Shown here piece after piece: positions 11,753-51,854 of a stretch of DNA of 64,000 nucleotides. The position numbers and the translations under genes are program-made. The notes under the pieces were generated by a model. It made no database searches. It saw only the letters and a program-made list of their open reading frames with translations, and was not told the origin of the DNA. Within the stretch, counting starts at the first letter, position 1. The number at the start of each line of letters is the position of its first letter. Location: the NCBI GenBank assembly GCA_028876335.1, contig JAGWSG010000134.1, forward strand, positions 1 to 64,000. The letters run 5' to 3'. Origin of the DNA: Acidobacteriota bacterium (GTDB lineage: Bacteria > Acidobacteriota > Terriglobia > Terriglobales > Acidobacteriaceae).

Positions 11753-14700
11753 ATGTCCCCCTCAGAAGTTACGAGAGGGGAGGCGGGACATCCGGCTCGG
11801 GCGCGTGTGACAGATTCTTCAGTTTGTGTTTTCAGGCACTATTTGGCGGCTTTGCGAGTTCGCGCCGGCGCTCTTCAGGGGCAGCCGCTTCCGTGCGTAA
11901 TCACGGTGAACGTATATGCGCTCTGCATTTTCATCGGTATTGTGGCTGCATTTGCGCAGGCACAAGGTGTGCCACCAATCAAACGAACAGGTCCGGTACC
12001 TCCTCGAGTTGTGCAAGCGCAGCGATTTCTTGCGCAGCGCGGCTGGTCCGTCCGCTCACCCAATCCTTCCGGAGAATTTAGGCCCTCTGCATTGCTGCGC
12101 CCTGTGCCTTCGGATGCCTCAGCCGGCCTTGCTGCGTGGCAACCCCTGGGCCCGGAATCTGTAACCACGGCCAGCTTTGGAGCCGTGACTGGGAGAATAT
12201 CTTCCATCGCATTCGACCCCGCAGATTCGACCGGCAATCACGTGTATGTGGGCACAACTGGCGGAGGTGTCTGGGTCTCGCAGAATGCGGCTACATCGAA
12301 CCAATCCAATGTTGCTTTTACTCCTCTGACGGACACCGTTGACGTGGGCAGTTTTGCCTCCAATGCCTCGATCAGCATTGGCGCGGTTTCTGTGCAGCCC
12401 GGTGGTACCGGTGTTGTGCTCGCCGGTACCGGCGATCCAAATGACGCTCTGGATTCGTACTACGGCGGTGGCATTCTGCGATCCACCGATAACGGCTCCA
12501 CGTGGTCGGTGATCGGTGCCACCTCCGACTATCGGTGGAGCTTCGCCGGCGAAGGATTCGCTGGATTTGCCTGGAGCACGACCAATCCCCAGCTTGTAGT
12601 TGCTGCAGTCTCGCAATCCTATGAGGGTATGCTTGTGGATGCTGAGCGGGCGAGCAGCAGCTATCGAGGGCTCTATTACTCGATCGACAGCGGCGCCACA
12701 TGGTCGCTTGCACGAATCACGGATGGCGCAACGGATGTGCAGGGGCCGAACGCGGCGTTTGCATTGCCGCATGGCAATGCGGTCACGTCGGTTGTTTGGA
12801 ATCAGGTTCGCAAGCTCTTCTATGCGGCAGTGCGTTATCACGGTTATTACCAATCAGTCGATGGACAGACCTGGACCCGCATGGTTACTCAACCGGGCAC
12901 CAATCTGACCGCGGCATTGTGTCCGTCCAATCCAGGCACTACGGGTTCGGTGGCTTGTCCCATCTTTCGAGGCACGCTGGCAGTCAATCTCATCACGGGT
13001 GACACCTTTGCGTGGACCGTCGATGTAAAGAACCAGGATCAAGGAATTTGGCAGGACCCGTGTGCCATTTCAAGTGGCGCATGCGGAAACACGACAGCAG
13101 CGTTCGCGCAACGGTGGAGTACGGCAGACCTTGAGAGCAACACGGTCGAAGGCGCCGCAACTATCGTAAATGGCGACTACACTCTGGCGTTGGCTGCTGT
13201 TCCATCCGGTCAGGACACGATTCTGATGGCGGGCGATGGCGATCTTTGGAAATGCAGCCTGGCGCTGGGATGCGTGTGGCGCAATAGCACCAACGCATTT
13301 AGCTGCAGAAGTGCCCATGTTGCGCCCTACCAGCACGCATTCGCTTGGAACGCAGCCAATCCACTGGAAGTTTTCGTAGGCAATGACAGCGGAGTTTGGC
13401 GTTCTTTCGATGCCATTTCTGAGAGTGGTGCAGCGTGCGATGCGTCCGATGCCACCCACTTTCAAAACCTCAATCAGAGCCTTGGTTCGTTGACGGAAGC
13501 CGCATTTGTTGCGCAGTCGCCCGTCACGCCCTACACCTTAATGGCTGGGCTGGGCGCAAACGGAACAGCAGGAGTGAAGGCCACATCCGGTGCGGTAGCG
13601 GATTGGCCACAGATTCTTGATGGGGAAGGTGGCCCCAATGCGATAGATGCCACCGATGATACCCATTGGTTCGCTAATAACCAGGCTGGAGTCGCGATTC
13701 ATCTCTGCGCGCAGTCGTCGGATTGCACACCAACCGATTTTGGTTCAACGCCCATAGTCACGGAAGCTGACGTAAGCAATGACGGCGTAACAATGACCGT
13801 TCCCGCAAACTTCCTCATCGATCCCTTGGATAACACCAGGCTGCTGGTTGCTACGTGCCGCGTGTGGCGTGGACCCATTGATGGTTCCGCATGGAGCAAT
13901 GCCAATGCCATCAGCGGGTTTCTCGATGGCGTAAGCGGAAAACTCAGTTGCAACGGAGACGCACTGATTCGCGTGCTTGCCGCCATGCCCATTGCGGGCG
14001 GTGATGAAGTGCTCTACGCCGGAATGTATGGCCAAAACGATGGCGGCGCAACGCGCGCGGGCCATGTCTTTCGCGCTGTATACACGCCGGGCGATGGTGT
14101 TCCTGCCTGGAGCGACCTTACATTCAATCCGGTAAGCAACGAGTCAGCCGGCTTCAATGTACAGGCCCTCGACATCACATCCATCGCAATCGACTCGGGA
14201 GATACGACGGGCAACACTCTATATGTCACCGTTGGAGGCGTAGGCAATCCGACGCAGCCCATCACGACAGCCTATCAGTCAACAGATGGCGGGGCGCACT
14301 GGCAGTCGATTGCGTCCAATCTGCCAACTACTCCGGCAAATGCAGTCGTTGTCGATCCACAGGACTCGGCCACGATCTACATCGCCACGGACGTCGGAGT
14401 GTATTCAACGCGTCAGATTTCAAGCTGCACATCCGGCATCGCAAATTGCTGGTCAAAATTTGGAACGGGCTTGCCCATGGCTCCGGTTGTCAGCCTCAGT
14501 ACCTCTGCGCCAGGTTCGTCGGAAAGTGTGTTGGTGGCTGGAACTTACGGTCGTGGAGTCTGGAAGACCGGTTTATGGACTGCAGGAACGCAGCAGACCA
14601 CCGCAACCGCGACTCCTTCCTCGTTGAGTTTTGCCAGCCAGACTGTCGGCACCACGAGCGCCGCACAAACAGTTACGATTACAAATGCTGGCTCCTCTCC

Positions 14701-16993
14701 GCTTGAAGTTTCGGCGGTGTCAATCACCGGGGACTTTGCGCAATCCGGAACCTGCGCGGGCGCAACCATCAATCCTGCTGGAACTTGTACTCTGCATGTC
14801 ACCTTCACGCCTACCCAGACAGGAACTCGAACCGGCAGTTTGTCTCTCGCTGCCAACATTTCCGGGGGGCAGCTGAGCATAGCACTTAGCGGTGATGGTA
14901 CGGCAAGTTCGGCCACATTTGTGTTGTCGCCTGCGTCGCTCGACTTCGGGCAAATTCAAGTGGGCAGTACCTCGCCACCTTTCAGTATCTCGGTAAGCAA
15001 CACGGGAATATCCGCGGTTACAGTTTCGAGTCTCACTGCCACAACGCCATTTGCAATCTCCAGCAGCGCATGTGGAGCTTCTATCGCTGCCAATAGCTCG
15101 TGTCAGGTAACTGTGACGTTTTCACCCACGCAGCAGGGAAGCGTCTCCGGCACATTGACCATGGTTGACTCCGTCGGGACGCAAACGGTCTCACTCATCG
15201 GCAACGGCGCATCCGCACCCACAGATTCCCTCAGCCCCACTTCGCTCACGTTTTCTTCGACAACAGTTGGCCAGGTCTCATCCGCGCAGTCTGTTACTCT
15301 CACCAATTCAGGCGATCTGGCACTCAATACAATCTCCGTACAGATGAGCGGGCCCTTTCAGGCGACAAACGGGTGTGGAGGATCTCTTGCGGCCCACTCA
15401 AGTTGCACCATCGGTGTTGTGTACGCACCAACTCAAACCGGCACGCAAACCGGGACGCTGACAGTGACGGACACTCTGCGTTCACAAACAGTATCCCTTT
15501 CGGGAGCAGGGGTTTCGGCTGCGGCGCTGTCAGTGACTCCAACAGCGGTAAACTTTGCAACGCAGGCACTTAACGTAACCAGTAGCGCGCAAACAATCAC
15601 CGTGCAAAATACAGGAGGCTCTGCTGCAGCCAATATTGGCTTCCAGATTACGGGTTCCTTCAGTAGCAGTTTTGCGGTCAGCTCCACCACCTGTGGAACT
15701 ACGCTCGCTTCTGGTTCAAGCTGTATCGCACAGATTACATTTACACCTCAAGTCGCTGGCGCCAATTCCGCTAATTTGACTGTTTCTTCTTCCACCATCA
15801 GTGTCTCAGCCGTCCAGGTTCCACTGAGCGGAGCTGGACAGGCAACTTCCGGCATCAATGTTTCTCCCGCGCAAATGAGCTTCATAGTAGCCACTCTGGG
15901 GCAGACAAGCGCTCCACAAATTGCAACAATCACCAACTCCGGTTCGCTCACAGCCAGTGGGCTTACCCTTTCCGTCACTTCTCCGTTCAGCCTTTCGCAA
16001 AATTCATGTGGAACAAGCCTTTCCGCTGGTGCGAGTTGTACGGCAAGTGTGGTCTTCACTCCCTCTTCCAACGGCACTGTGAACGGAACATTGACAGTTG
16101 GATCTGCGACCTATAACTCCGCCATCGTCACCCTGGCCGGGAATGGCGGGCAAACCGGTTCCATAACTTTGCAACCAGCGTTTCTCAATTTCCAAGTCAC
16201 AGGCGTTGGTAAGTCAAGCGCTTCACAGACAATGACGGTGACTAACTCCAGTATCACGACGGTTACAAGCGTCACCGTGAAGGTATCCACTAGTTATCAA
16301 TTGACGAGTAATAACTGCGGCACCTCGCTCGCGCCAGGCGCCAGTTGTTCCGTTGGTATTGCCTTTGTCCCAGCTGCGGCTGGCCAGCAGAATGGTTTTG
16401 TTGCTTTTTCGGGAAACGAGTTGCCCTCCCCTGTTCAGGCTCAGTTATCCGGAATCGGATTTGATTTCACGCTGGCCGTGATCGGACCTTCCAGTCAGAC
16501 AGTCAGCAGCGGCCTGACTGCTCAATTCAATTTGCAACTCACGCCACTCAACGGTTCCTCCGGCACCTTTACTTTTTCCTGCGGTGCATTGCCATCCAAC
16601 AGTTCCTGCACTTTCAGCCCCACCAGTGAGTCAGTACCAGCCAATACAACCGGAAGCTTTGTCGTCTTTGTCAAAACCGGCGAGGCACAGGCCGCCTCAA
16701 CCAACATTCCAGGATCATTAAATAGATTGCCATTGTGGCCGACCGGATTGACGATCGCTTTCGCCTGCCTTTGCTGTCCGTTTGTTCGGCAAAGGCGTTC
16801 CCACTCGTGGCTTTTGCTTCTTGTGCTCTGCATTGGCGCCCTCGGACTTGCAAGTTGCGCAGCCGCGGGCGGCGGCTCCAAAGGCACAGTTGGCGGCGGG
16901 CCGTCCACGCCTCCAGGGACATACACCTTTACTGTTACCGCAACAGCGAATGGTCTCTCGCACAGCACAAACCTGACTCTTACCGTCGACTAA
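11753..16993 (+). CDS. Giant secreted protein: BNR/sialidase-like propeller, six choice-of-anchor-D repeats, Ig-like domain with membrane hairpin
   Basis: Up to 1746 residues. ATG 11753 is the outer limit. The first hydrophobic signal-like stretch (VYALCIFIGIVAAFAQAQ, about residues 54-71) suggests the true start is later, possibly GTG 11906. Residues of about 110-940 carry repeated strand motifs such as TTGGGVWVS, STDNGSTWSVIG and STDGGAHWQSIA, typical of BNR/VPS10-like propellers. About residues 955-1570 hold six repeats of about 100 residues, each with SLxF, a Cys-Gly pair and a VxFxPxxxG strand (choice-of-anchor-D/ASPM-SPD2-Hydin type). The last Ig-like domain is interrupted by two hydrophobic segments and a lipobox-like LASCAAAGGG. 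Ligand unknown; likely a cell-surface adhesion or recognition protein. Confidence 0.85.
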   Translation: MSPSEVTRGEAGHPARARVTDSSVCVFRHYLAALRVRAGALQGQPLPCVITVNVYALCIFIGIVAAFAQAQGVPPIKRTGPVPPRVVQAQRFLAQRGWSVRSPNPSGEFRPSALLRPVPSDASAGLAAWQPLGPESVTTASFGAVTGRISSIAFDPADSTGNHVYVGTTGGGVWVSQNAATSNQSNVAFTPLTDTVDVGSFASNASISIGAVSVQPGGTGVVLAGTGDPNDALDSYYGGGILRSTDNGSTWSVIGATSDYRWSFAGEGFAGFAWSTTNPQLVVAAVSQSYEGMLVDAERASSSYRGLYYSIDSGATWSLARITDGATDVQGPNAAFALPHGNAVTSVVWNQVRKLFYAAVRYHGYYQSVDGQTWTRMVTQPGTNLTAALCPSNPGTTGSVACPIFRGTLAVNLITGDTFAWTVDVKNQDQGIWQDPCAISSGACGNTTAAFAQRWSTADLESNTVEGAATIVNGDYTLALAAVPSGQDTILMAGDGDLWKCSLALGCVWRNSTNAFSCRSAHVAPYQHAFAWNAANPLEVFVGNDSGVWRSFDAISESGAACDASDATHFQNLNQSLGSLTEAAFVAQSPVTPYTLMAGLGANGTAGVKATSGAVADWPQILDGEGGPNAIDATDDTHWFANNQAGVAIHLCAQSSDCTPTDFGSTPIVTEADVSNDGVTMTVPANFLIDPLDNTRLLVATCRVWRGPIDGSAWSNANAISGFLDGVSGKLSCNGDALIRVLAAMPIAGGDEVLYAGMYGQNDGGATRAGHVFRAVYTPGDGVPAWSDLTFNPVSNESAGFNVQALDITSIAIDSGDTTGNTLYVTVGGVGNPTQPITTAYQSTDGGAHWQSIASNLPTTPANAVVVDPQDSATIYIATDVGVYSTRQISSCTSGIANCWSKFGTGLPMAPVVSLSTSAPGSSESVLVAGTYGRGVWKTGLWTAGTQQTTATATPSSLSFASQTVGTTSAAQTVTITNAGSSPLEVSAVSITGDFAQSGTCAGATINPAGTCTLHVTFTPTQTGTRTGSLSLAANISGGQLSIALSGDGTASSATFVLSPASLDFGQIQVGSTSPPFSISVSNTGISAVTVSSLTATTPFAISSSACGASIAANSSCQVTVTFSPTQQGSVSGTLTMVDSVGTQTVSLIGNGASAPTDSLSPTSLTFSSTTVGQVSSAQSVTLTNSGDLALNTISVQMSGPFQATNGCGGSLAAHSSCTIGVVYAPTQTGTQTGTLTVTDTLRSQTVSLSGAGVSAAALSVTPTAVNFATQALNVTSSAQTITVQNTGGSAAANIGFQITGSFSSSFAVSSTTCGTTLASGSSCIAQITFTPQVAGANSANLTVSSSTISVSAVQVPLSGAGQATSGINVSPAQMSFIVATLGQTSAPQIATITNSGSLTASGLTLSVTSPFSLSQNSCGTSLSAGASCTASVVFTPSSNGTVNGTLTVGSATYNSAIVTLAGNGGQTGSITLQPAFLNFQVTGVGKSSASQTMTVTNSSITTVTSVTVKVSTSYQLTSNNCGTSLAPGASCSVGIAFVPAAAGQQNGFVAFSGNELPSPVQAQLSGIGFDFTLAVIGPSSQTVSSGLTAQFNLQLTPLNGSSGTFTFSCGALPSNSSCTFSPTSESVPANTTGSFVVFVKTGEAQAASTNIPGSLNRLPLWPTGLTIAFACLCCPFVRQRRSHSWLLLLVLCIGALGLASCAAAGGGSKGTVGGGPSTPPGTYTFTVTATANGLSHSTNLTLTVD

Positions 16994-36537: not shown

Positions 36538-36969
36538 GCGAAAGACTCCAGGGAATTGGCGGATTGGGGGATTTCTCAGCGGGCCACTCTTGCGGAACGC
36601 AATTGCGAAATGCCCTCAACCGGAGGCTAACATAGTGAGCCTCCGGGGCGATTGAACGATCAACATTTCCAGTTCTAAAGGACTGAATCGGAACACTTCG
36701 AAAGTTGTGTTCCTGTAGGCTTCCCAAGTATCCAACTCCTTTCAGTCGACCGACATTGTTCGCCGTTCTTCGCCTTGAATGGATACGCGGAGGTTTCCGC
36801 GGCAGAAAGCCGGCATCCGAAATTTCAATGGGCAGTGTAAGCTGTGCGATGCAACAATAGGTTTTGTTCCATGCGAAGGCCTTTGTACCCTAATCACGCT
36901 GCGTCTGGCTGGCCAATGGAAAGCCAGATTGGGCGTTTTGTCTCGGGAATTGGCGGCTCATTCCCGTTG
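36538..36969. promoter_or_regulatory. Divergent control region between sthA and the ASPIC/FG-GAP gene
   Basis: This region of about 430 bases contains two palindromic signals. CCGGAGGCT (36620-36628) and AGCCTCCGG (36638-36646) form a 9-bp hairpin in the presumed sthA leader. GGAACAC (36690-36696) and GTGTTCC (36707-36713) form an operator-like repeat with a 10-base spacer. No coding frame is convincing before the signal peptide of the right-hand gene. The regulator is unknown. Confidence 0.45.
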
Positions 36970-38739
36970 ATGCGAAAGTCTGATCGGCCTGCGGTTTTCT
37001 TTGTCCGGTCCCTGGTAGTGCTTCTTGCAGTCGTGGCCGGAGCGGGCACAATCGCATCGCCGCAGACCAAACTCCCCGCGTCAAAAACAGCCACTCAATC
37101 GAAAACCGGGACAGTAAACCAGAAGAGGCCAGCGGAGATTCATCCATTCCATTTTGAAAACATTCAGCCGCATTCCGGTGTGAATTTTGTTCTCAATAAC
37201 AGCATCAGTCCCTATCGTTACTCGATCGAAACGATGCTCGGCGGCGTCGCGCTCTTCGACTACAACAACGACGGACTGCTCGACATCTTCTTTACCAACG
37301 GAGCGGCGATTCCTTCGCTTGAAAAGACGGGGAAGCAATATGTAAACCGGCTCTACCGTAACAACGGAGACGGAACGTTTACCGATGTTACGGAGAAGGC
37401 AGGCCTGGCCGGCATCGGCTACTCGATGGGCGTTGCGGCCGCGGATTACGACAACGACGGGTACGTGGATCTTTATGTGACCGGGTACAACCGCAATCAG
37501 CTTTTTCACAATAACGGCAACGGCACATTTACAGACGTGACGGAAAAGGCCGGCGTCAGCGGGGTGATTCCCGGCTACGGCAAGGCCTGGGGCCAGACCG
37601 CCGGCTGGTTTGATTACAACAACGACGGGCGGCTGGACCTGCTGGTGATCAATTATCTCGATTACGACATTAAGACCGCGGCCCATTGCGAACAGTCCGG
37701 TGTGACTGCCTATTGCACTCCGCTCAGTTTCAAAGGAACGCCGAACATTCTGTATCGCAACAACGGCGATGGTACATTTACTGATGTCTCAAAGCAGTCC
37801 CACGTGGCGGACTTTGTGGGCAAGGGGATGGGTGTTTCGTTCGCGGACTACGACAATGATGGTTTTACCGATGTCTTCATCTCCAATGACACATTTCCAA
37901 ACTTTCTGCTGCACAACAACAGAGACGGGACATTTTCTGAAGTCGCGTTGCAGGCCTCTGTTGCGTACAACGGCTTTGGCAGTGTGGTTGCGGGAATGGG
38001 CACAGATTTTCGCGACATCGACGACGATGGCAAGCCGGACATTTTTCAGACGGCGATGTTCGGTGAAGGATATCCGGTATACAGAAATCTTGGGAACGGC
38101 GAGTTTCTTGACATGAGCGGTGCATCAAGACTCGCCGCTCAAACAACGCGGGTCACTGCCTGGGGCGCGGGCATTTTCGATTTCGACAACGATGGTCGGA
38201 AAGATCTCTTCACGGCAAACTCCGACATCCTTGATAACTCAATGGAAATCGCTCACCGGCCGTTCAAACTGCCCAGTGGAATTTTTCGCAATATAGGCAA
38301 TTTCACGTTCGATGATGAGAGCCGCTTTGCCGGTGAGGATTTTGCCGTACCGGAAGCCCACCGGGGGGCGGCCTTCGGCGATCTGAACAATGATGGCAAA
38401 GTGGATATCGTAGTCACCAACCTGAATGGTCCGCCGCAAATTCTGATGAATCACGCAAAGACCGCCAATCACTGGATCATTCTCAATCTTGTGGGAACAA
38501 AGTCCAACCGGGACGGACTAGGCACGAAGATCAAACTCACTACTGCCGCTGGAGTCCAATACAACCACGCCACAACGGCAGTGGGGTATAACTCGTCTAG
38601 TGATAAACGCGTGTACTTTGGGCTTGGTCTGGCGGACAAAATCCAAAGCATTGAGCTCGCGTGGCCCAGCGGCATAAAGCAGACACTGAAGGACGTGAAA
38701 GCCGATCAGATCCTGACCGTGACGGAAAGCACCAAGTAG
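36970..38739 (+). CDS. Secreted FG-GAP/VCBS repeat protein with ASPIC/UnbV C-terminal domain
   Basis: A 589-residue exported protein (start ATG 36970 chosen because a signal peptide, RSLVVLLAVVAGAGTIA, follows directly; in-frame ATGs at 36916 and 36844 exist). At least seven DxDxDGxxD calcium-type loops are visible, among them DYNNDGLLDIFF, DYDNDGYVDLYV, DYNNDGRLDLLV, DFDNDGRKDLFT and DLNNDGKVDIVV. They imply a beta-propeller of the integrin/FG-GAP type. The C-terminal part (DGLGTKIKLTTAAGVQYNHA onward, ending SIELAWPSGIKQTLKDV) is the ASPIC/UnbV domain. Such proteins are common in acidobacteria; the ligand is unknown. Confidence 0.9.
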   Translation: MRKSDRPAVFFVRSLVVLLAVVAGAGTIASPQTKLPASKTATQSKTGTVNQKRPAEIHPFHFENIQPHSGVNFVLNNSISPYRYSIETMLGGVALFDYNNDGLLDIFFTNGAAIPSLEKTGKQYVNRLYRNNGDGTFTDVTEKAGLAGIGYSMGVAAADYDNDGYVDLYVTGYNRNQLFHNNGNGTFTDVTEKAGVSGVIPGYGKAWGQTAGWFDYNNDGRLDLLVINYLDYDIKTAAHCEQSGVTAYCTPLSFKGTPNILYRNNGDGTFTDVSKQSHVADFVGKGMGVSFADYDNDGFTDVFISNDTFPNFLLHNNRDGTFSEVALQASVAYNGFGSVVAGMGTDFRDIDDDGKPDIFQTAMFGEGYPVYRNLGNGEFLDMSGASRLAAQTTRVTAWGAGIFDFDNDGRKDLFTANSDILDNSMEIAHRPFKLPSGIFRNIGNFTFDDESRFAGEDFAVPEAHRGAAFGDLNNDGKVDIVVTNLNGPPQILMNHAKTANHWIILNLVGTKSNRDGLGTKIKLTTAAGVQYNHATTAVGYNSSSDKRVYFGLGLADKIQSIELAWPSGIKQTLKDVKADQILTVTESTK

Positions 38740-38747
38740 ATCCGGGC

Positions 38748-41700
38748 TTATCGGGCTTCGGTCAGCGCATCCGTAGCTTTGCTCATCTTGGCAGTTCGTT
38801 CAAGTTTGTCCCAGTTAAAGGGCTTGCCGTCAATCGCACGCTTCAGCGTCTTGAAGAGCACGATGGAAAATACCTGGCGGTAAGCAAAGCGCTGCAGCCA
38901 GATATGGAAGAGCAGCCAGCCATCACCTTTATTGGCCGGATGCCTGCGCTCAAGTGAGAACGCGATTGTCGAGGTCACAAAGTCGATCAGCAGGAAGGTA
39001 AGGAAGTAGGCCAGCAGCTTCATGAAGCTCGCCGCAGACGCCGCCTCGGGGTGATAATGCCGATCGACCAGATACTGCACAATTCCGCCAAGGAACATGA
39101 GATCAATAAACGGCGAAACCAGAGGGAGCAGCATCTGAAAGATGAGGATGTTAGGCAGTGCGAACAGTCCCATGGCCTTGTTGCGCACAAAGGCGAGCCG
39201 ATGCTTCCAGACGGCCTGCAAAATGCCGAATGACCAGCGGAAGCGCTGCCGCATCAAACCCTTTGCATCGATAGGCGCTTCAGTGAAGGCCAGAGCCCTG
39301 TCTTCATACACCACACGATAGCGCTGCTCCAGCAAATTCATGGTAAGGTCGGCATCTTCCGCCACCGTATTCAAGGGGTAGCCGCCAGCCTTCTTGACTG
39401 GTGCAGTGCGCCACGCACCAATTGCGCCTGGCACCACAGTGACGACGTGGAAGAGATCCATTGCACGGCGTTCAAAGTTCTGGCTGGTGATGTATTCCAA
39501 CGCCTGCCACCGCGTCCACAGATTCACGCGGTTGCCCACTTTTGCGTTTCCGGCAACAGCACCGATACGAGCATCTTCAAAATGCGGAATCAGTTTCGAG
39601 ATCGCATCCGAAGCAATTACCGTGTCCGCATCAATGCCGACATAAAACTCTTCGTTCAAGTGTTCCAGTGCAAAGTTCAGCGCGGCTGCTTTGCCACCGT
39701 TTGGCTTGGTCAGCACTTCCACGCGTCCTTCGGCAATCTCGGCCCTGTAAGCCTCGCGTGCCACGCGAACCGTGTCGTCTTTTGATCCATCGTCAATCAC
39801 AATCACGCGCAGATGCGGGTAATCGGAATTCAACACGGAACGAACCGTGCGAACAATGACCTTCTCTTCGTTATATGCAGGAACAAGCACTGCCACCTGA
39901 GGCGCAAAGCCTTCCGAGGCATTGCGGTGGGGACGGCGCAATCGGTCGATGATGGCGAAAAGTCCTACGAGGACAAGTCGCGCGCTCATCAGAATGTCGC
40001 CGATAAAGAAGACGCCAACAATGAAAGTGCCGATCATTGAAAGCATTGAGAAGGCAATTGAATCAGGGATTGCGCGCACATACTGCCAGAATGTGAGCGC
40101 GGGCATGACCTGCGCCGTAGTTTTCCCCATCAGTGCGGAAACGGGAACAATCTTGTATCCGTGTGCACGGAGAGTGTCGATCAGAACAGGCAATGCCGCA
40201 ATTGTCGCGGAACGGTTTCCGCCGCCATCGTGCATCAGGATGATTGAGCCGCGGAGCTGCGGCCGCGTCTTCATCTCATTAAGCGTATCCAGCACCGTCT
40301 GCGTAATTTCCTGCGGCGACTTGTGGACACGCTCGTCCCAGTCATTCGTGTCAATTTTATTGCCGATGATAGTGAAGCCGAGTTGCTGCACATGGAAGAC
40401 CGGCGCGGCCTGATCGTCGGTGTCCGGCTCTTCGTCAATGTCGTACGGCGGTCTGAAGTAAAGTGGCTCAACGCCCAGCTTGCTGGCGAAGAGACGTTCC
40501 GTCAGTTTGACTTCCAGATCGAGCTGGCGCTGCGAGATTTCGCTGATGTCAGGATGCGTGTAGGTGTGATTGCCAATCTCATTCCCTTCACGCTCAACCC
40601 GTTGCATCAGCCCAATGTTTTCCTGGGCCTCATCGCCAATCATCATGAACGTAGCCTTCACGTTCTTCTGTTTCAAAATATCCAGGATCTTCGGCGTCCA
40701 ACGCGGATCGGGACCATCATCGAATGAAATTGCAACCTCATTGGGCTTATATCCGTAATATTCAACCGTGCAAGGGCGCGGATACACATCCATGTGCTCG
40801 TGGACGATGAGCTTCTTGCGGGGATCGGGTTCATCCGGATCGGCTTGTACAGTGCGCTTTCCGGGCTTTGGCAGGCCGGTTACGCGCAGAATATCCCCTT
40901 CGCCTTCCTGGTCCACCTCGTGACCCGGCTGAACGTTCCCAAGCGAAGTTAAGGCGGTCGGAAGCATGGGGCGATCCCAGATGCTCCACAGGGAACTGTC
41001 TTCAGACCCCAATCTCCACAGCGCAAAGGTTTGCAGCCCTAGCTCGCGCGCAGCACGCATTTCATTCAGCACAGTCACGCCGTCAAGGAACCAGACCACA
41101 TGCTTCTGGTTTGCGTCTTCATCAATGTATTCAAAGTGCGGATTCAGTGATGTCTGGTCCAGATCAAGATCGGCGTTCGCGTCAGAGGCGCGCTGCCACG
41201 CCTCCGACACAGTCAGATCCTCAGTGTTAACGACTTCAGGCTTTTCCGCTCGATGACCGCGTTTCGGCTTCTGCGGAATCGACAGGGTCCAGTCATATCC
41301 ATAACTACCCAGTGCACATATGAGCTTCTGCTTCGGGACAGCTTTCAAAGCCTTGGTTAGATTCGCAACGAACCATGCCTGGCTTGCAATAGGTCCAGGA
41401 TCGCTTTCGACCTCATGCTGGTCATAGTTCATCAGCACAAGTCCGTCGGCATTGGCGGCCATCTGCTTCAGTTGCGCAGCCGGTGTGGAGACCGGAACGT
41501 TGATGTAGAGGCGAAGATTGCGTTTTGAGAGACTCGCGTAAAGCTGCTGGATAAAAGTGAGGTAGTCGGGAACGGCGCTATCCGGAAGACTTTCAAAGTC
41601 CAATGAGATGCCGGGGTAAACCCAGTCACCCTTATCGGTGCGATACGTGGTGAGGAAGACAACGATCTCGTCAATCAGCTGAGTCCGCTGGTCAGCATTG

Positions 41701-42299
41701 GCCAGTACCTGTGAGAAGTTAGCATCCCATTTCTGCACAGAAGAGTCGAAATTGTCCAGGTGGGGAAAGACTTCAGTGTCTTCATGGGCCGCCGCAATCG
41801 CACGTTTGATCCGGTTCAGATCATCCGGGTCATGCACTGTGTTTCCATCAACGATGCGATAGCTTCTGTGGCTTTCGTTGTTGATTCCCAGAAGATGCGG
41901 GTTGGAACTCGTGGAATGAAGCCATGCGGGAAAGAGGATATCGATTTGATGAACGTGCTGCTTGAAGGACGAATAACTGGCTTCGTCATAGGGCACGTAA
42001 TAGGCGGCTCGCAGCCCTTCACCGCTGTTGAAGGGAATTTCGGAGGCTTTCCGTTGGGTTTTGCGATGACTTGGATGCACGGGGTGCCCATACCGCGTCA
42101 CAGCGGTGTTATCGCGGATTGCCCTGTAATTGTGTTTCGGTGACGGTAGCAGCAATTCGGGCAGCGGATTGCTGCGCAGCACATTGAAAATAAACCCGAT
42201 CAGCACCAGGGTAATGACAACGGCGGAAATATCAATCAAGCGACGAAGCCGCTTCCAGCGTTTGCGCTCAGGGTCGAAGAATATCTGATCTTCCGGCAT
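38748..42299 (-). CDS. Three-domain exopolysaccharide enzyme: GH18-like + NodB deacetylase + processive GT2
   Basis: A 1183-residue membrane protein. After one helix (residues 21-41) comes a GH18-like domain (about 95-445) with the catalytic-type motif LDFE (233-236). A NodB polysaccharide deacetylase domain (about 515-730) follows, with FDDGP (526-530), the metal-binding pair His578 and His582 in NHTYTHPD, RPPYD (616-620) and LMHDGGG. A helical linker (about 745-785) leads to a family 2 glycosyltransferase (about 800-1180) with DAD (890-892), EDADL (981-985) and QRFRW (1018-1022), plus C-terminal helices. This combines in one chain the activities of PgaB (deacetylase plus hydrolase) and PgaC (synthase). 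It likely makes and trims a partly deacetylated surface polysaccharide. Confidence 0.92.
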   Translation of the reverse strand: MPEDQIFFDPERKRWKRLRRLIDISAVVITLVLIGFIFNVLRSNPLPELLLPSPKHNYRAIRDNTAVTRYGHPVHPSHRKTQRKASEIPFNSGEGLRAAYYVPYDEASYSSFKQHVHQIDILFPAWLHSTSSNPHLLGINNESHRSYRIVDGNTVHDPDDLNRIKRAIAAAHEDTEVFPHLDNFDSSVQKWDANFSQVLANADQRTQLIDEIVVFLTTYRTDKGDWVYPGISLDFESLPDSAVPDYLTFIQQLYASLSKRNLRLYINVPVSTPAAQLKQMAANADGLVLMNYDQHEVESDPGPIASQAWFVANLTKALKAVPKQKLICALGSYGYDWTLSIPQKPKRGHRAEKPEVVNTEDLTVSEAWQRASDANADLDLDQTSLNPHFEYIDEDANQKHVVWFLDGVTVLNEMRAARELGLQTFALWRLGSEDSSLWSIWDRPMLPTALTSLGNVQPGHEVDQEGEGDILRVTGLPKPGKRTVQADPDEPDPRKKLIVHEHMDVYPRPCTVEYYGYKPNEVAISFDDGPDPRWTPKILDILKQKNVKATFMMIGDEAQENIGLMQRVEREGNEIGNHTYTHPDISEISQRQLDLEVKLTERLFASKLGVEPLYFRPPYDIDEEPDTDDQAAPVFHVQQLGFTIIGNKIDTNDWDERVHKSPQEITQTVLDTLNEMKTRPQLRGSIILMHDGGGNRSATIAALPVLIDTLRAHGYKIVPVSALMGKTTAQVMPALTFWQYVRAIPDSIAFSMLSMIGTFIVGVFFIGDILMSARLVLVGLFAIIDRLRRPHRNASEGFAPQVAVLVPAYNEEKVIVRTVRSVLNSDYPHLRVIVIDDGSKDDTVRVAREAYRAEIAEGRVEVLTKPNGGKAAALNFALEHLNEEFYVGIDADTVIASDAISKLIPHFEDARIGAVAGNAKVGNRVNLWTRWQALEYITSQNFERRAMDLFHVVTVVPGAIGAWRTAPVKKAGGYPLNTVAEDADLTMNLLEQRYRVVYEDRALAFTEAPIDAKGLMRQRFRWSFGILQAVWKHRLAFVRNKAMGLFALPNILIFQMLLPLVSPFIDLMFLGGIVQYLVDRHYHPEAASAASFMKLLAYFLTFLLIDFVTSTIAFSLERRHPANKGDGWLLFHIWLQRFAYRQVFSIVLFKTLKRAIDGKPFNWDKLERTAKMSKATDALTEAR

Positions 42300-42337: not shown

Positions 42338-43792
42338 ATGGTATACAGTTTGAATCGTATGGAAGCAGAGGCGTCGAGTCAATTTCAAGAGACTCCCTTG
42401 CTACGCTGGCGCCTTGTCGATTGGGTAATCCTATGGGCTGCAGTTGTTTGCGGCTTGCTGTTGCGCCTTTGGTTTCTTAAATCAATCTTCGCAGCCAATG
42501 GCGATACCCTCATCTACGGCGATATAGCTGCAAACCTGCTTACCAGGGGAAAGTACGCGGTCACCAGTTTGGATGGAGTGTTGCACTCCACTCTGATTCG
42601 CCTGCCCGGCTATCCATACTTCCTGGCGCTCTGCTTCTCGATTTTCGGCAAGGGCAACTACGTCGCGGTTGCGTTCGTTCAGATCGTGCTCGATCTTCTT
42701 ACGGCCCTGCTGATTGGCGATACCGCACGGCGGCTGGCGCCGCCTCCGATGCGCCGCATCGCGCTTCAGGGCACAGTCTGGCTTGCGATGGTTTGCCCTT
42801 TCACCGCTGCTTATGCGGTGATCCCACTTACGGAAGGGCCAACGCTGTTTTCGATAGCCCTGGCAATGTGGGCCGCGACTTGCCTTGCTCAAAAGCCACG
42901 TTGGACTTCGGCGCTTACTCTTACTCTTGCTCTCGTGTGGGCCGCATTACTTCGCCCGGACGGAGTACTGATCTCTGTGGTTCTGGTGCCGGCGCTGCTC
43001 CTGCAGTTGAAGGGCAACTTCACCCCCAAAGTGCTGCGCATTGTTACCGTCAGCATTGTGTTGGGTGTGATTCCGTTTGTTGCATGGACCTGGCGCAACT
43101 TCGAGATCTTCCATGTATTTCAGCCGCTGGTGCCAAAGTCTGCAACGGATCCCGGAGAGCCGGTGTATGGAGGGTGGGAGCGTTGGGTGAAGACCTGGAG
43201 TCTGGACTTTGCAACTACGTATTCAATTTATTGGGAGGTGCAAGGGGAAAAGCTCGACATCGACCTGCTGCCGTCCCGCGCATTCGACTCGGATGCACAA
43301 TACCGCCGAACGCAGGCTCTTGTCGATGCATACAATGCGGGAGGTTATTCGCTCAATGCATCCCTTGATGCGGGCTTTGCGAAACTCGCCGCCAATCGTA
43401 TCGCGGCCCATCCGCTGCGCTATTACGTACTGCTGCCGTTGGGACGTGTTGCGGACATGTGGTTTCGGCCGCGTGTCGACAATCTCAATATCGATCTGGA
43501 CTGGTGGGTGTATGAGAACCACCCGCACGAGACGATCTTGAGCTGGAGCTATGCACTGCTCAATGTGCTGTATCTTGCAGCTGGAATCGCGGGGATGTTC
43601 CTGCGCCCGCGCTTTTGGAAAGCAATGCTCGCATACTTCCTTCTGCGCAGCGCCCTGCTGGCCACCGTGGCAGCGCCGGAAACGCGCTACACGCTCGAGT
43701 GCTTTCCGATGCTGTTCCTTTTGGGCGGGCTAGCGATTGCACACCGGTGGATGAAGATGCGTACAGCCATCTCAGCTCAGCGAACGATGTAA
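42338..43792 (+). CDS. ArnT/PMT-like (GT39-type) membrane glycosyltransferase
   Basis: A 484-residue polytopic protein with about ten helices (DWVILWAAVVCGLLLRLWF, then many more). The pattern suits GT-C glycosyltransferases that use lipid-linked sugars: a first loop with acidic residues (NGDTLIYGDIAANLL) and a C-terminal region after the last helices. Starts at ATG 42338 (an ATG at 42359 is possible) and is divergent from the exopolysaccharide gene by about 38 bases. The two probably serve surface glycan synthesis together. Its stop overlaps the convergent LolA-like gene by 16 bases. The substrate is unknown. Confidence 0.8.
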   Translation: MVYSLNRMEAEASSQFQETPLLRWRLVDWVILWAAVVCGLLLRLWFLKSIFAANGDTLIYGDIAANLLTRGKYAVTSLDGVLHSTLIRLPGYPYFLALCFSIFGKGNYVAVAFVQIVLDLLTALLIGDTARRLAPPPMRRIALQGTVWLAMVCPFTAAYAVIPLTEGPTLFSIALAMWAATCLAQKPRWTSALTLTLALVWAALLRPDGVLISVVLVPALLLQLKGNFTPKVLRIVTVSIVLGVIPFVAWTWRNFEIFHVFQPLVPKSATDPGEPVYGGWERWVKTWSLDFATTYSIYWEVQGEKLDIDLLPSRAFDSDAQYRRTQALVDAYNAGGYSLNASLDAGFAKLAANRIAAHPLRYYVLLPLGRVADMWFRPRVDNLNIDLDWWVYENHPHETILSWSYALLNVLYLAAGIAGMFLRPRFWKAMLAYFLLRSALLATVAAPETRYTLECFPMLFLLGGLAIAHRWMKMRTAISAQRTM

Positions 43793-48932: not shown

Positions 48933-51854
48933 TCAAGGATGAATCTCAATCGCAATCGGCAGAGAACTCGCATTGCCTGTTGTTGCGGTTGCCACGGTGT
49001 TGGTGGCCACACCGGGAATGGATGCAGGGGTGAAGACAACCAGTCCGGAATTGTCTGACGTCGCCGTGGAAACCTGCGTGGCCAGCAAGGGGGACGCGGT
49101 GCAGCGGCCATGCGGCGGGCACGGCGGAGCCCAGGCGTAGAGCGACTGATAGAGCGTCACCGTGCCACCTGCCATGGGATTGCCGTTGAGGTCATGCACG
49201 CGAAGCACAATCTGGCTGGGAGTGCTCGAGACAGCAACGGACTGTGTGGTGCCGCTGACGGCTTTCACGGTGGCAAACTCCGGCCGCGCGCCAAGCACGG
49301 TGAAATCCGCGCAATTTGCTGTGCCGTTCACGCACGCCGTGGCTGTACTCAGCACTCCTTCGGTTCGCGGAGAGGCAGTGAGCATTTTGGTTGCGATGCC
49401 GCTTGAGCTGCTTGTTGAAGTAGAGCCTCCCTGCACCGTAATGTCGCATCCGCAGTTCGAATCCCACGCGACCATTTGTCCGCTCACCGGTGTTCCGTTG
49501 TTCAAAACGATGGCTTCGGTCGTCCAGTTGACCGAAGCGCCGGTTGCGACGGAGAGGAACGGAGTGAGCGCCGTTAGCACCGGCGCGCTGCCGCCCGTGA
49601 AGTGCGCCTGCAGACTCGCGTTGTTGGTGAGAGAAGCCGTCACGACCGCGGGCGAGGTGTTGAGCGCCGTGACTGTCATGGTGGCCAGCCCGTCGCCGGT
49701 TGCTGTTACCGAGCACACCGTGGAGCCGCAACCGAGGGTCGCCGATCCGCTGGTGACCGAATACGTCACGGTTACCCCGCTGGCCGGTACAAGGGATGCA
49801 TTCAAAGCCTGTACAGAGAAGGGAAGCGGCACGCCAACGGAGACTGTATTCGAAGGGGCAGTGACAAGCGTGAGCGAGTCGCCTGTGCCGGCGTCATAAC
49901 TGATGCCGCCAGTGATGATTGCCGCCGCGGAATAAAGGGGAAGATCGTCGACTTCAACGTCTGCCGAACCTGCAGCTGTCACGGCCGGTGCGATTGCCGT
50001 GATTTCTGTGGGCGAAATGCTTGTAACAACGGCCGGCCTGCCGCCTACGGTCACCGTGTCCTGCGAGCGAAAACCTGTTCCGCGAATCACGATCGGGCCG
50101 CCGCCCAGGGGCAGGTGCTCGGGTTGCACGGTGTCGGCATAGAGCAGCCAGCCGGTGTAGAGATAGTCGGGCCGCCCGTCTCCGCGCAGATCGGCAATAC
50201 CGATGCGCACGATATCGTCTGAAGCTGTGCTTACCTGCAGCCAGCTCTCACCGGTGGCGAAACCGTTGAATCCTGGTACCCAACCCACCGCGGGTGAGCC
50301 TGTTGTGTCGAGCGCATCCCACACGCCGAGAGAGGGCATGGCTCTTGAATTGCTCGGGATGCCGTTCTCATTGAGTGCCTGCGTGACCAGCGTGAAGGTA
50401 CGGTTGGCACGCACTGGAAAGAGGAACCAGTCGGTCTGTTCCACTTGACCAATGCGGCCTGTCCAGAGCCCACCCTGCGGCAAGGGCCGCGGGCTGTTCT
50501 CCGTTGCAATTGCATCCTGCGATCCGGTCGCTGCCGAGTCGGAGATGGGTACATCGAGTGTCTGGGTTGAACCCGGTGTCATGTTGGTCACAGTCAAAGT
50601 CGGCATGGTGCCGGAGGGGCTCGGTGAACCGTCCACATAAGGGCCAACAGCATTGTTCATGATGTAGAGCGGATTGATGGCTTCAAATGTGATCTGATAG
50701 GTCGCCGTCGTCATGCCCGGCGGTAAAGGCATATAGCTCAGATCAAAAAAGCCCTGTTGGCTCGGGTCCGTTCCGCCCCACTTGGAGTAAGGCACGCCGC
50801 TGGAATCCTGCCATCCCGTCACCGGATTACCGTGCTTGCCGCGAAACGTCGCCCCGCTGACCGCCGTGATCGTGTACTCGTAGAGCGGATTCCCGTTCGC
50901 GTCCAGCGGTCGTGCCACAACGTTCACACCCTGCATCCCCACGCCGGTGCGGAACTTGAGAGTTCCGCTGATCGAAGCCGTGTTTGCCGCCGTCAGCTCC
51001 TTCCCGGGGAAGCTGGAGAGATTCGTCGCCGTGATCGGGTAGATGCGGTTGAGTGCCGCAATGTCATCAAGCCGCAATTGCGTCGGGTTAGGGATGCAAT
51101 TCCCGCCACTGTTGCCGCATGCGCCGCTGATGGGCTGCATCACCGGCCAGCCCTGCGTGCCGTTCGGCATGCCGTTGGTAGCCGCGCCGTCGTTCACCTG
51201 TGAGTAGCCAAGGCCAAGAATGCGCCCGAAGGCGCGCTCCAGCTCAAAGCCAATCATGGTCAACTGGCTCGCCGTGCCCGCGCAGCGCCCGTTGACCAGG
51301 ATGACAGCGTGACTCACGGTGGCATCGGTGTTGATGCCGTCCATCCAAAACCAGACGCCGTTGAACTGGCAGCTTGTCGGGTCGCTGGCGCCTGTGCCGA
51401 AAAGCGCGTCGGTAACCGAGCCGTCGGTGTCAAAGACCACGCCGACGGGGTAGTTGGTTGCCGATGGCGTCATGTCCGAAGGTGCGGCGAAGACCTTGTT
51501 CCCCGCCACGGTATTCAGGCCGCTCACATCTTCGTTGAGCGTGCCCTTGTCGGTCAGCGTCACTCCGGCGGTCGGAACTGCGCTCCAAATAGCCGCCGCT
51601 GCGTCCACCATAGCCACGGCCTGTGCATTGCTCACGCTGGCGTTCAGCGGTCCCTGGTCCACGTAGTAATTAAGCGCACCGTTTCTCCAGTGGACCGGCT
51701 GGCCAATCACGGCGGGATCAAAATAGCTGGAGCCGGCGATGTACTTGGGGCCTCCGGCAAGCGCGGAAGCAGGGCACAGCGTAAGTGTGAATCCAAACAT
51801 TAGAAATGACTTAGAAAGCCAGACTTTTGTCTTCCTGTGGAGGCAGTGGGACAT
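48933..51854 (-). CDS. Secreted Ig/IPT-type protein with a degenerate matrixin-like N-domain
   Basis: A 973-residue exported protein (signal LSKSFLMFGFTLTLCPASALA). The N-terminal 270 residues resemble matrixin/metzincin peptidases in layout (WRNGALNYYVDQGPLNASVS and a long acidic-polar stretch). However, the zinc-site region is ELERAFGRILGLGYS (205-219), where all metal His of HExxHxxGxxH and the catalytic Glu are absent. Residues of about 290-400 are beta-rich, and a region of about 400-550 may be a CARDB/pre-peptidase-like domain. About 570-660 is IPT/TIG-like (LPLGGGPIVIRGTGFRSQDT). The rest are Ig-like repeats (VTYSVTSGSATLGCGSTVCS). Convergent with the dipeptidase gene, 28 bases away. 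Confidence 0.85.
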   Translation of the reverse strand: MSHCLHRKTKVWLSKSFLMFGFTLTLCPASALAGGPKYIAGSSYFDPAVIGQPVHWRNGALNYYVDQGPLNASVSNAQAVAMVDAAAAIWSAVPTAGVTLTDKGTLNEDVSGLNTVAGNKVFAAPSDMTPSATNYPVGVVFDTDGSVTDALFGTGASDPTSCQFNGVWFWMDGINTDATVSHAVILVNGRCAGTASQLTMIGFELERAFGRILGLGYSQVNDGAATNGMPNGTQGWPVMQPISGACGNSGGNCIPNPTQLRLDDIAALNRIYPITATNLSSFPGKELTAANTASISGTLKFRTGVGMQGVNVVARPLDANGNPLYEYTITAVSGATFRGKHGNPVTGWQDSSGVPYSKWGGTDPSQQGFFDLSYMPLPPGMTTATYQITFEAINPLYIMNNAVGPYVDGSPSPSGTMPTLTVTNMTPGSTQTLDVPISDSAATGSQDAIATENSPRPLPQGGLWTGRIGQVEQTDWFLFPVRANRTFTLVTQALNENGIPSNSRAMPSLGVWDALDTTGSPAVGWVPGFNGFATGESWLQVSTASDDIVRIGIADLRGDGRPDYLYTGWLLYADTVQPEHLPLGGGPIVIRGTGFRSQDTVTVGGRPAVVTSISPTEITAIAPAVTAAGSADVEVDDLPLYSAAAIITGGISYDAGTGDSLTLVTAPSNTVSVGVPLPFSVQALNASLVPASGVTVTYSVTSGSATLGCGSTVCSVTATGDGLATMTVTALNTSPAVVTASLTNNASLQAHFTGGSAPVLTALTPFLSVATGASVNWTTEAIVLNNGTPVSGQMVAWDSNCGCDITVQGGSTSTSSSSGIATKMLTASPRTEGVLSTATACVNGTANCADFTVLGARPEFATVKAVSGTTQSVAVSSTPSQIVLRVHDLNGNPMAGGTVTLYQSLYAWAPPCPPHGRCTASPLLATQVSTATSDNSGLVVFTPASIPGVATNTVATATTGNASSLPIAIEIHP

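Follow-up and report, generated by a model that had tools for sequence, protein, structure and literature searches.

In the Escherichia coli system for poly-N-acetylglucosamine (PNAG), the roles of synthase, deacetylase and hydrolase are held by separate proteins, the GT2 synthase PgaC and PgaB, in which the deacetylase is followed by a GHL13/GH153 domain. The Staphylococcus proteins IcaA and IcaB, a GT2 enzyme and an extracellular CE4 deacetylase, are likewise separate and lack GH18, and NodC and NodB, a polymerase of N-acetylglucosamine (GlcNAc) and a NodB-type deacetylase, are two separate proteins for a short oligomer. However, MatB of Streptomyces coelicolor and Streptomyces lividans (the SCO2962/SCO2963 system) already carries CE4 outside and a PgaC-like GT2 inside, with one helix between them, in one chain (PMC5972031). 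MatA, a separate, translationally coupled protein in which the 2018 paper found no known domain, is required along with MatB for antibody-positive, dispersin-B-sensitive PNAG in Streptomyces (PMC5972031). Here we analyze a 64,000-nucleotide stretch of Acidobacteriota DNA (the window), in which a single gene encodes a trimodular protein of 1183 amino acids (aa) with GH18-like, CE4 and GT2 domains. This protein probably joins a synthase and a deacetylase for a glucosamine-type polymer in one membrane-embedded chain.

The gene is one open reading frame (ORF) on the minus strand, with its ATG at 42299, its stop at 38748 and no internal stop; the plus strand across 38748-42299 is broken by many stops. 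An earlier note on this DNA had described one protein with GH18-like, NodB and processive GT2 domains, and the ORF, the Pfam matches and the positions of the motifs it quoted all agree with that description. The three Pfam domains score over their curated cut-offs: Glyco_hydro_18 (PF00704) at residues 191-431 (E 4.4e-14; 53.3 bits against a cut-off of 29.6 bits), Polysacc_deac_1 at 518-619 (E 3.9e-28) and Glyco_tranf_2_3 at 800-1025 (E 1.4e-33). All five CE4 motifs (DD, HxxxH, RPPY, DxxDW and LxH) are found, including FDDGP at 526-530 and the pair H578/H582. The marks of a processive GT2 are found as well, namely DDG, DxD (DAD, 890-892), ED (EDAD, 981-984), Q(Q/R)xRW (QRFRW, 1018-1022) and membrane helices. 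The GH18 signature reads PGISLDFE, with LDFE at 233-236. The note had called the GH motif intact, which holds for LDFE but not for the full classical DxxDxDxE, of which only the last Asp (D234) and the Glu (E236) remain. As it had also stated, the order hydrolase-deacetylase-synthase is unlike that of PgaB, where the deacetylase comes before GHL13/GH153. The parts of the gene, with the evidence for each, are as follows.

38748..42299, minus strand: trimodular GH18-CE4-GT2 membrane protein, 1183 aa (ORF, Pfam, AlphaFold model).
42240..42299, minus strand: residues 1-20, predicted cytoplasmic N-terminal motif (I/V)FxDPxxRR, common to MatA-like proteins (profile, conservation).
42177..42263, minus strand: residues 13-41, first membrane helix, predicted with the N terminus inside (hydropathy, model, Lys/Arg bias over 71 homologues).
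40965..42017, minus strand: residues 95-445, GH18-like TIM barrel, predicted periplasmic (Pfam, Protein Data Bank [PDB] sequence matches, Foldseek).
41592..41600, minus strand: residues 234-236 (D-F-E), GH18 catalytic Asp/Glu, intact in the window protein (motif, alignment of relatives).
40758..40964, minus strand: residues 446-514, beta-rich connector (model, conservation).
40116..40757, minus strand: residues 515-728, CE4 (NodB) de-N-acetylase with five CE4 motifs (Pfam, motifs, Foldseek).
39936..40070, minus strand: residues 744-788, predicted single long membrane-crossing helix between CE4 and GT2 (model, hydropathy, positive-inside bias).
39198..39914, minus strand: residues 796-1034, processive GT2 with DDG, DAD, ED and QRFRW (Pfam, NCBIfam, conservation, GT2 comparison).
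38829..39179, minus strand: residues 1041-1157, C-terminal membrane helices 1041-1082, 1089-1116 and 1126-1157 (hydropathy, model).

An AlphaFold2 model of the window protein, built on 48 sequences (mean pLDDT 89.5, pTM 0.78), arranges these parts as a helix (13-41), the GH18 barrel, the connector (446-514), CE4, a second helix (744-788), GT2 and three C-terminal helices. When compared with the PDB by Foldseek, the GH18 part matched chitinase 5jh8 (TM(target) 0.85), the CE4 part peptidoglycan deacetylase 4l1g (TM(target) 0.84) and the GT2 part hyaluronan/cellulose synthases; by sequence, the PDB matches of the GH18-like domain include 5jh8, 3cz8 and SleL. A PDB sequence search with the connector, in which G466, G468, G480 and P507 are near-invariant, returned no match. 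Hydropathy alone allows two helices within 748-785, which would place CE4 and GT2 on the same side, whereas the model has one continuous helix over residues 744-788. Over 71 homologues, Lys plus Arg averages 5.8 before helix 1 and 2.6 after it, and 4.0 in the 15 residues after helix 2 compared with 2.5 in the 20 residues before it. Because of the continuous helix in the model and this bias, we place the N terminus inside, GH18 and CE4 outside and GT2 inside. These observations fit a protein whose GH18 and CE4 domains face the outside of the inner membrane, the arrangement proposed in the earlier note for a single inner-membrane polypeptide with a cytoplasmic GT2; that note would have been contradicted by CE4 and GT2 on one side, and the two are predicted on opposite sides.

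The note had drawn its comparison with PgaB and PgaC. The likeness in roles stands, and the GT2 is PgaC-like, but the Pga proteins are not the nearest system, since MatB already joins CE4 and GT2 in one chain. The Mat proteins differ in having no GH18 domain, and Streptomyces is monoderm. The trimodular N terminus consists of (I/V)FxDPxxRR, in which F7 and R14 are invariant (71/71 representatives), and then helix 1, and MatA-like proteins have in common a VFxDPxGRR motif and a helix. When a profile of residues 1-55 was searched against the 9591 ORFs from all loci, the matches ranking below the trimodular proteins were one frameshifted trimodular fragment and, at 21 of 24 actinobacterial loci, the ORF immediately upstream of CE4-GT2 (E 1e-11 to 1.1e-5; L145:6487-7515, L158:7033-7731, L144:6898-7734 and others); the next unrelated ORF had E 0.046. 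A Pfam scan of three of these MatA-like proteins gave no family match. At the Streptomyces coeruleorubidus locus (L145, identical with L182) an FtsE-type ATPase lies upstream, in keeping with the description of the mat locus as lying near ftsEX, and SCO2963 was matched via this ftsE-linked locus of a relative rather than by its own sequence. The Kocuria CE4-GT2 protein itself carries the N-terminal segment. From this N-terminal match, the trimodular protein looks like the MatA N terminus, a GH18 barrel and MatB in one chain, and the link to MatA is new.

The same S. coeruleorubidus genome has a second MatA-MatB-like pair (L181:6097-9026; G356) besides the ftsE-linked one, and a third relative (G356:C1:5464454) that matches the GT2 part only. 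Actinobacteria have a shorter CE4-GT2 form without GH18, in some cases with an IcaC-like acyltransferase 3 as the next gene or as a fused part; no such acyltransferase was seen beside the window gene. In Micromonospora, two CE4-GT2 proteins (L155:100-3423, L152:38-3331) have a C-terminal acyltransferase 3 domain, an IcaC-like fusion. A profile search found no trimodular-type GH18 partner beside the actinobacterial CE4-GT2 genes, and the Kocuria neighbor labeled "chitinase" matches GH18 only under the cut-off.

The fusion is widespread and not local to the source genome, which has one full-length copy. It occurs in 33 of 35 other genomes of the genus, in some as contig-end fragments, and the two without it are incomplete (65% and 80%). 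In our phylum sample, all 31 listed members of the family have one copy each, and 52 of 297 Acidobacteriota have a match, as do 5 of 190 sampled Alphaproteobacteria and 9 of 198 sampled Bacteroidota. Named loci come from Sphingomonas, Phenylobacterium, Rhodobacterales, Gemmatimonadota, Verrucomicrobiota, Mucilaginibacter, Prevotella and Deinococcus. Full-length homologues share 41-44% identity in distant Acidobacteriota and 30-40% in other phyla. That the ORF arose by chance or assembly fusion of adjoining genes in a metagenome-assembled genome might be considered for a 236-contig assembly, but the same full-length architecture is conserved in dozens of independent genomes, single-contig chromosomes among them, and we rejected this explanation as extremely improbable. 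Public records label the protein merely "glycosyltransferase". Open-access full-text literature (the search did not extend to subscription papers) yielded no description of a GH18-CE4-GT2 architecture, and as far as that literature shows the protein is uncharacterized.

We surveyed catalytic residues in 120 trimodular proteins, with the window protein as the numbering reference. CE4 D527, D528, H578, H582, D653 and H690 and GT2 D837, D890, D892, E981, D982, Q1018, R1021 and W1022 are invariant (120/120), and GT2 D836 is kept in 118 proteins and replaced by Asn in two. GH18 Glu236 is kept in 105 proteins, most of which also keep Asp234 and Tyr292, and replaced in 15 (Gln in 8, Ser in 4, and Asp, Pro or Gly in the others); almost all proteins lack the first two Asp of DxxDxDxE. 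On a tree of CE4 plus GT2, position 236 changes state five times or more. A well supported Granulicella/Bryocella clade that lies within the window's family, among members with Glu, accounts for six of the Gln forms, a pattern that reads as a clear loss. Conservation is lowest in GH18, with a median identity to the window protein of 0.37, compared with 0.51 for CE4 and 0.58 for GT2. Nevertheless, the three co-evolve (Mantel r 0.80-0.84, null maximum 0.18), as would be expected for an old fusion. Since the CE4 and GT2 residues are kept and the GH18 Glu is variable, the synthase and deacetylase functions are obligatory and GH18 cutting is optional. The earlier note had pictured a machine for synthesis, modification and trimming, and had named loss of catalytic residues in relatives as a result that would count against it. 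Such loss is found in GH18 and not in CE4 or GT2; the synthesis and modification parts of the picture hold in outline, but trimming does not appear to be a conserved function, because the Glu is lost in 15 of 120 proteins. The window protein retains D234, E236, Y292 and D293, and its GH18 domain may therefore be catalytically active. The natural E236Q clade is a ready comparison for the role of the GH18 part. Two further observations concern proteins without the Glu: a strong stand-alone GH18 gene lies near one such trimodular gene in Rhizobium albus (L126:12468-13697), and four in Rhodobacterales (L031, L123, L137 and L138) all adjoin a DUF3131-type protein of 796-927 aa.

We considered whether the GH18 domain is non-catalytic throughout, serving as a lectin-like guide that binds the chain. 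The recurrent replacement of Glu236, the near-general lack of the first two Asp and the lowest conservation among the three domains are all in favor of such a role. However, retention of Glu in 105 of 120 proteins, mostly with Asp234 and Tyr292, is expected only if catalysis is usually selected, and the same reduced motif is present in YdhD and in a Chromobacterium chitinase; we find a wholly non-catalytic domain somewhat unlikely. Alternatively, the domain could be a peptidoglycan hydrolase that opens the wall locally for polymer passage instead of trimming the polymer. Among its nearest relatives of solved structure are YdhD and the spore-cortex enzymes SleL/YaaH, which share with it a TIM barrel, the reduced DxE motif and a PGP(V/I)A stretch but are stand-alone enzymes and not parts of synthases, and the domain faces the periplasm in the model; this kinship also sets it apart from the GHL13 domain of PgaB. 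Yet the catalytic Glu is dispensable in several lineages that keep the domain, and no conserved neighbor points to wall assembly. We consider a wall-opening role unlikely.

The nature of the product was weighed from the GT2 part and from the two outer domains. The best NCBIfam model for GT2 is PgaC_IcaA (TIGR03937), and a profile of trimodular and MatB-type GT2 domains scores PgaC at 213, IcaA at 185, NodC at 140 and BcsA at 71 bits. In a GT2 tree, trimodular, MatB-type and PgaC/IcaA sequences stand apart from NodC and BcsA, with PgaC on a long branch. A NodC-type GT2, which is more distant, was rejected on its lower profile score and separate branch. Because profile scores and tree side with PgaC/IcaA, a PNAG-like polymer is the most likely product, at about even chances, held to that level because the GH18 and nearest CE4 enzymes act on beta-1,4 chains. 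A beta-1,4 chitin- or chitosan-type chain or oligosaccharide made by the logic of NodC/NodB would be directly cleavable by GH18, and would suit both outer domains, whose nearest enzymes work on beta-1,4 GlcNAc in chitin and peptidoglycan; NodB-NodC pairs are, moreover, the next matches in plasmids. But the GT2 profile scores PgaC/IcaA well over NodC, the tree separates NodC, and the CE4 of MatB has these beta-1,4-type relatives too, although dispersin B and antibody identify the MatB product as PNAG (PMC5972031). On balance, a beta-1,4 chitosan-like product seems rather unlikely, and a product of another kind we rate the same.

Several points weigh against a PNAG-like, Mat-like machine. The GT2 part reaches 177.6 of the 422.3 bits set as the PgaC_IcaA equivalog cut-off (a MatB-type protein, at 194.5 bits, is likewise under it), and this shortfall and the long PgaC branch make the assignment of a beta-1,6 linkage soft. 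The source genome (91% complete) has no PgaA porin over the TIGR03939 cut-off, which one control genome exceeded. Since MatB already possesses a first membrane helix of its own, the match to MatA reflects a segment in common and does not amount to one chain simply cut in two. Moreover, we know of no activity, product or phenotype for any trimodular member. A canonical Pga system in the source genome was rejected: besides the lack of a PgaA over the cut-off, there is no PgaB C-terminal domain, a search for GHL13 (PF14883) having found none while the E. coli control was positive. The sub-cut-off PgaA-profile matches resemble TPR proteins of a kind that also match in 12 of 14 controls. Beside the trimodular gene, no counterpart of PgaD was seen.

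Taking these points together with the architecture, we favor a mechanism in which the cytoplasmic GT2 would polymerize a nucleotide sugar, most likely UDP-GlcNAc, presumably processively, and its membrane helices would pass the growing chain across the inner membrane. CE4, located on the periplasmic stretch that separates helices 1 and 2, would de-N-acetylate the emerging chain. The adjoining GH18-like barrel would bind it and may cut it where Glu is kept, as in the window protein; in the several lineages without Glu it would only bind. The N-terminal motif and helix 1 would be the counterpart of MatA, and the protein would work like Streptomyces MatA and MatB fused around GH18. The polymer would presumably serve a surface or biofilm role.

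A second glycosyltransferase gene stands next to the trimodular gene.

42338..43792, plus strand: divergent GT-C (PMT_2-type) glycosyltransferase, its start codon 38 bp from that of the trimodular gene (Pfam PMT_2, 31 bits).

It is the divergent neighbor in 61 of the 75 acidobacterial loci whose flanks are long enough, and five distant loci (L064, L066, L067, L072 and L092) keep it although the other window neighbors were not found there. It was not found upstream in the remaining 14 of the 75, nor in loci outside Acidobacteriota. The earlier note's divergent, ArnT-like glycosyltransferase is thus real as a conserved GT-C neighbor, but the likeness to ArnT did not hold up: the protein matches PMT_2 weakly, and neither an ArnT model nor any NCBIfam family. 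The GT-C protein may act on the same polymer. On the other side, an FG-GAP/ASPIC-UnbV repeat protein (36844-38739) ends 8 bp from the trimodular stop codon, convergently, and no homologue was found in the flanks of other loci. Further away, a 973-aa protein with IPT/TIG and Big_1-type domains is encoded at 48933-51854, and Acidicapsa has a homologue of it close to the locus. Sphingomonads and one locus from Gemmatimonadota (L029:6882-7634 and 14061-16655; L098:4994-7636; L101) have an MprF-type lysyl-phosphatidylglycerol synthase, often with an AcvB-like hydrolase, in the vicinity of the trimodular gene, a hint of some connection with cationic surface charge.

A broader picture can be offered only tentatively, and we hold it to be somewhat unlikely as a whole. 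It would be a one-gene glucosamine-polymer machine in at least six phyla, uniting MatA, a GH18 barrel and MatB in a single polypeptide. The F7/R14 motif would be a required docking or control element of GT2, and GH18 would repeatedly have given up cutting to become a guide for the chain. A dedicated GT-C would decorate the polymer in Acidobacteriota, where export would proceed without PgaA. If true, the docking or control role of the N-terminal motif would also explain the role of MatA. The MatA link itself offers a testable role for a Streptomyces protein lacking any known domain, on which PNAG and the formation of pellets depend. Every sampled member of the Acidobacteriaceae, a family abundant in soil, has the trimodular protein, which also occurs in many further groups of Gram-negative bacteria; given its annotation as "glycosyltransferase" only, a likely matrix or surface polymer has been overlooked. 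It would provide a single-gene system for the joint study of polymerization, translocation and de-acetylation.

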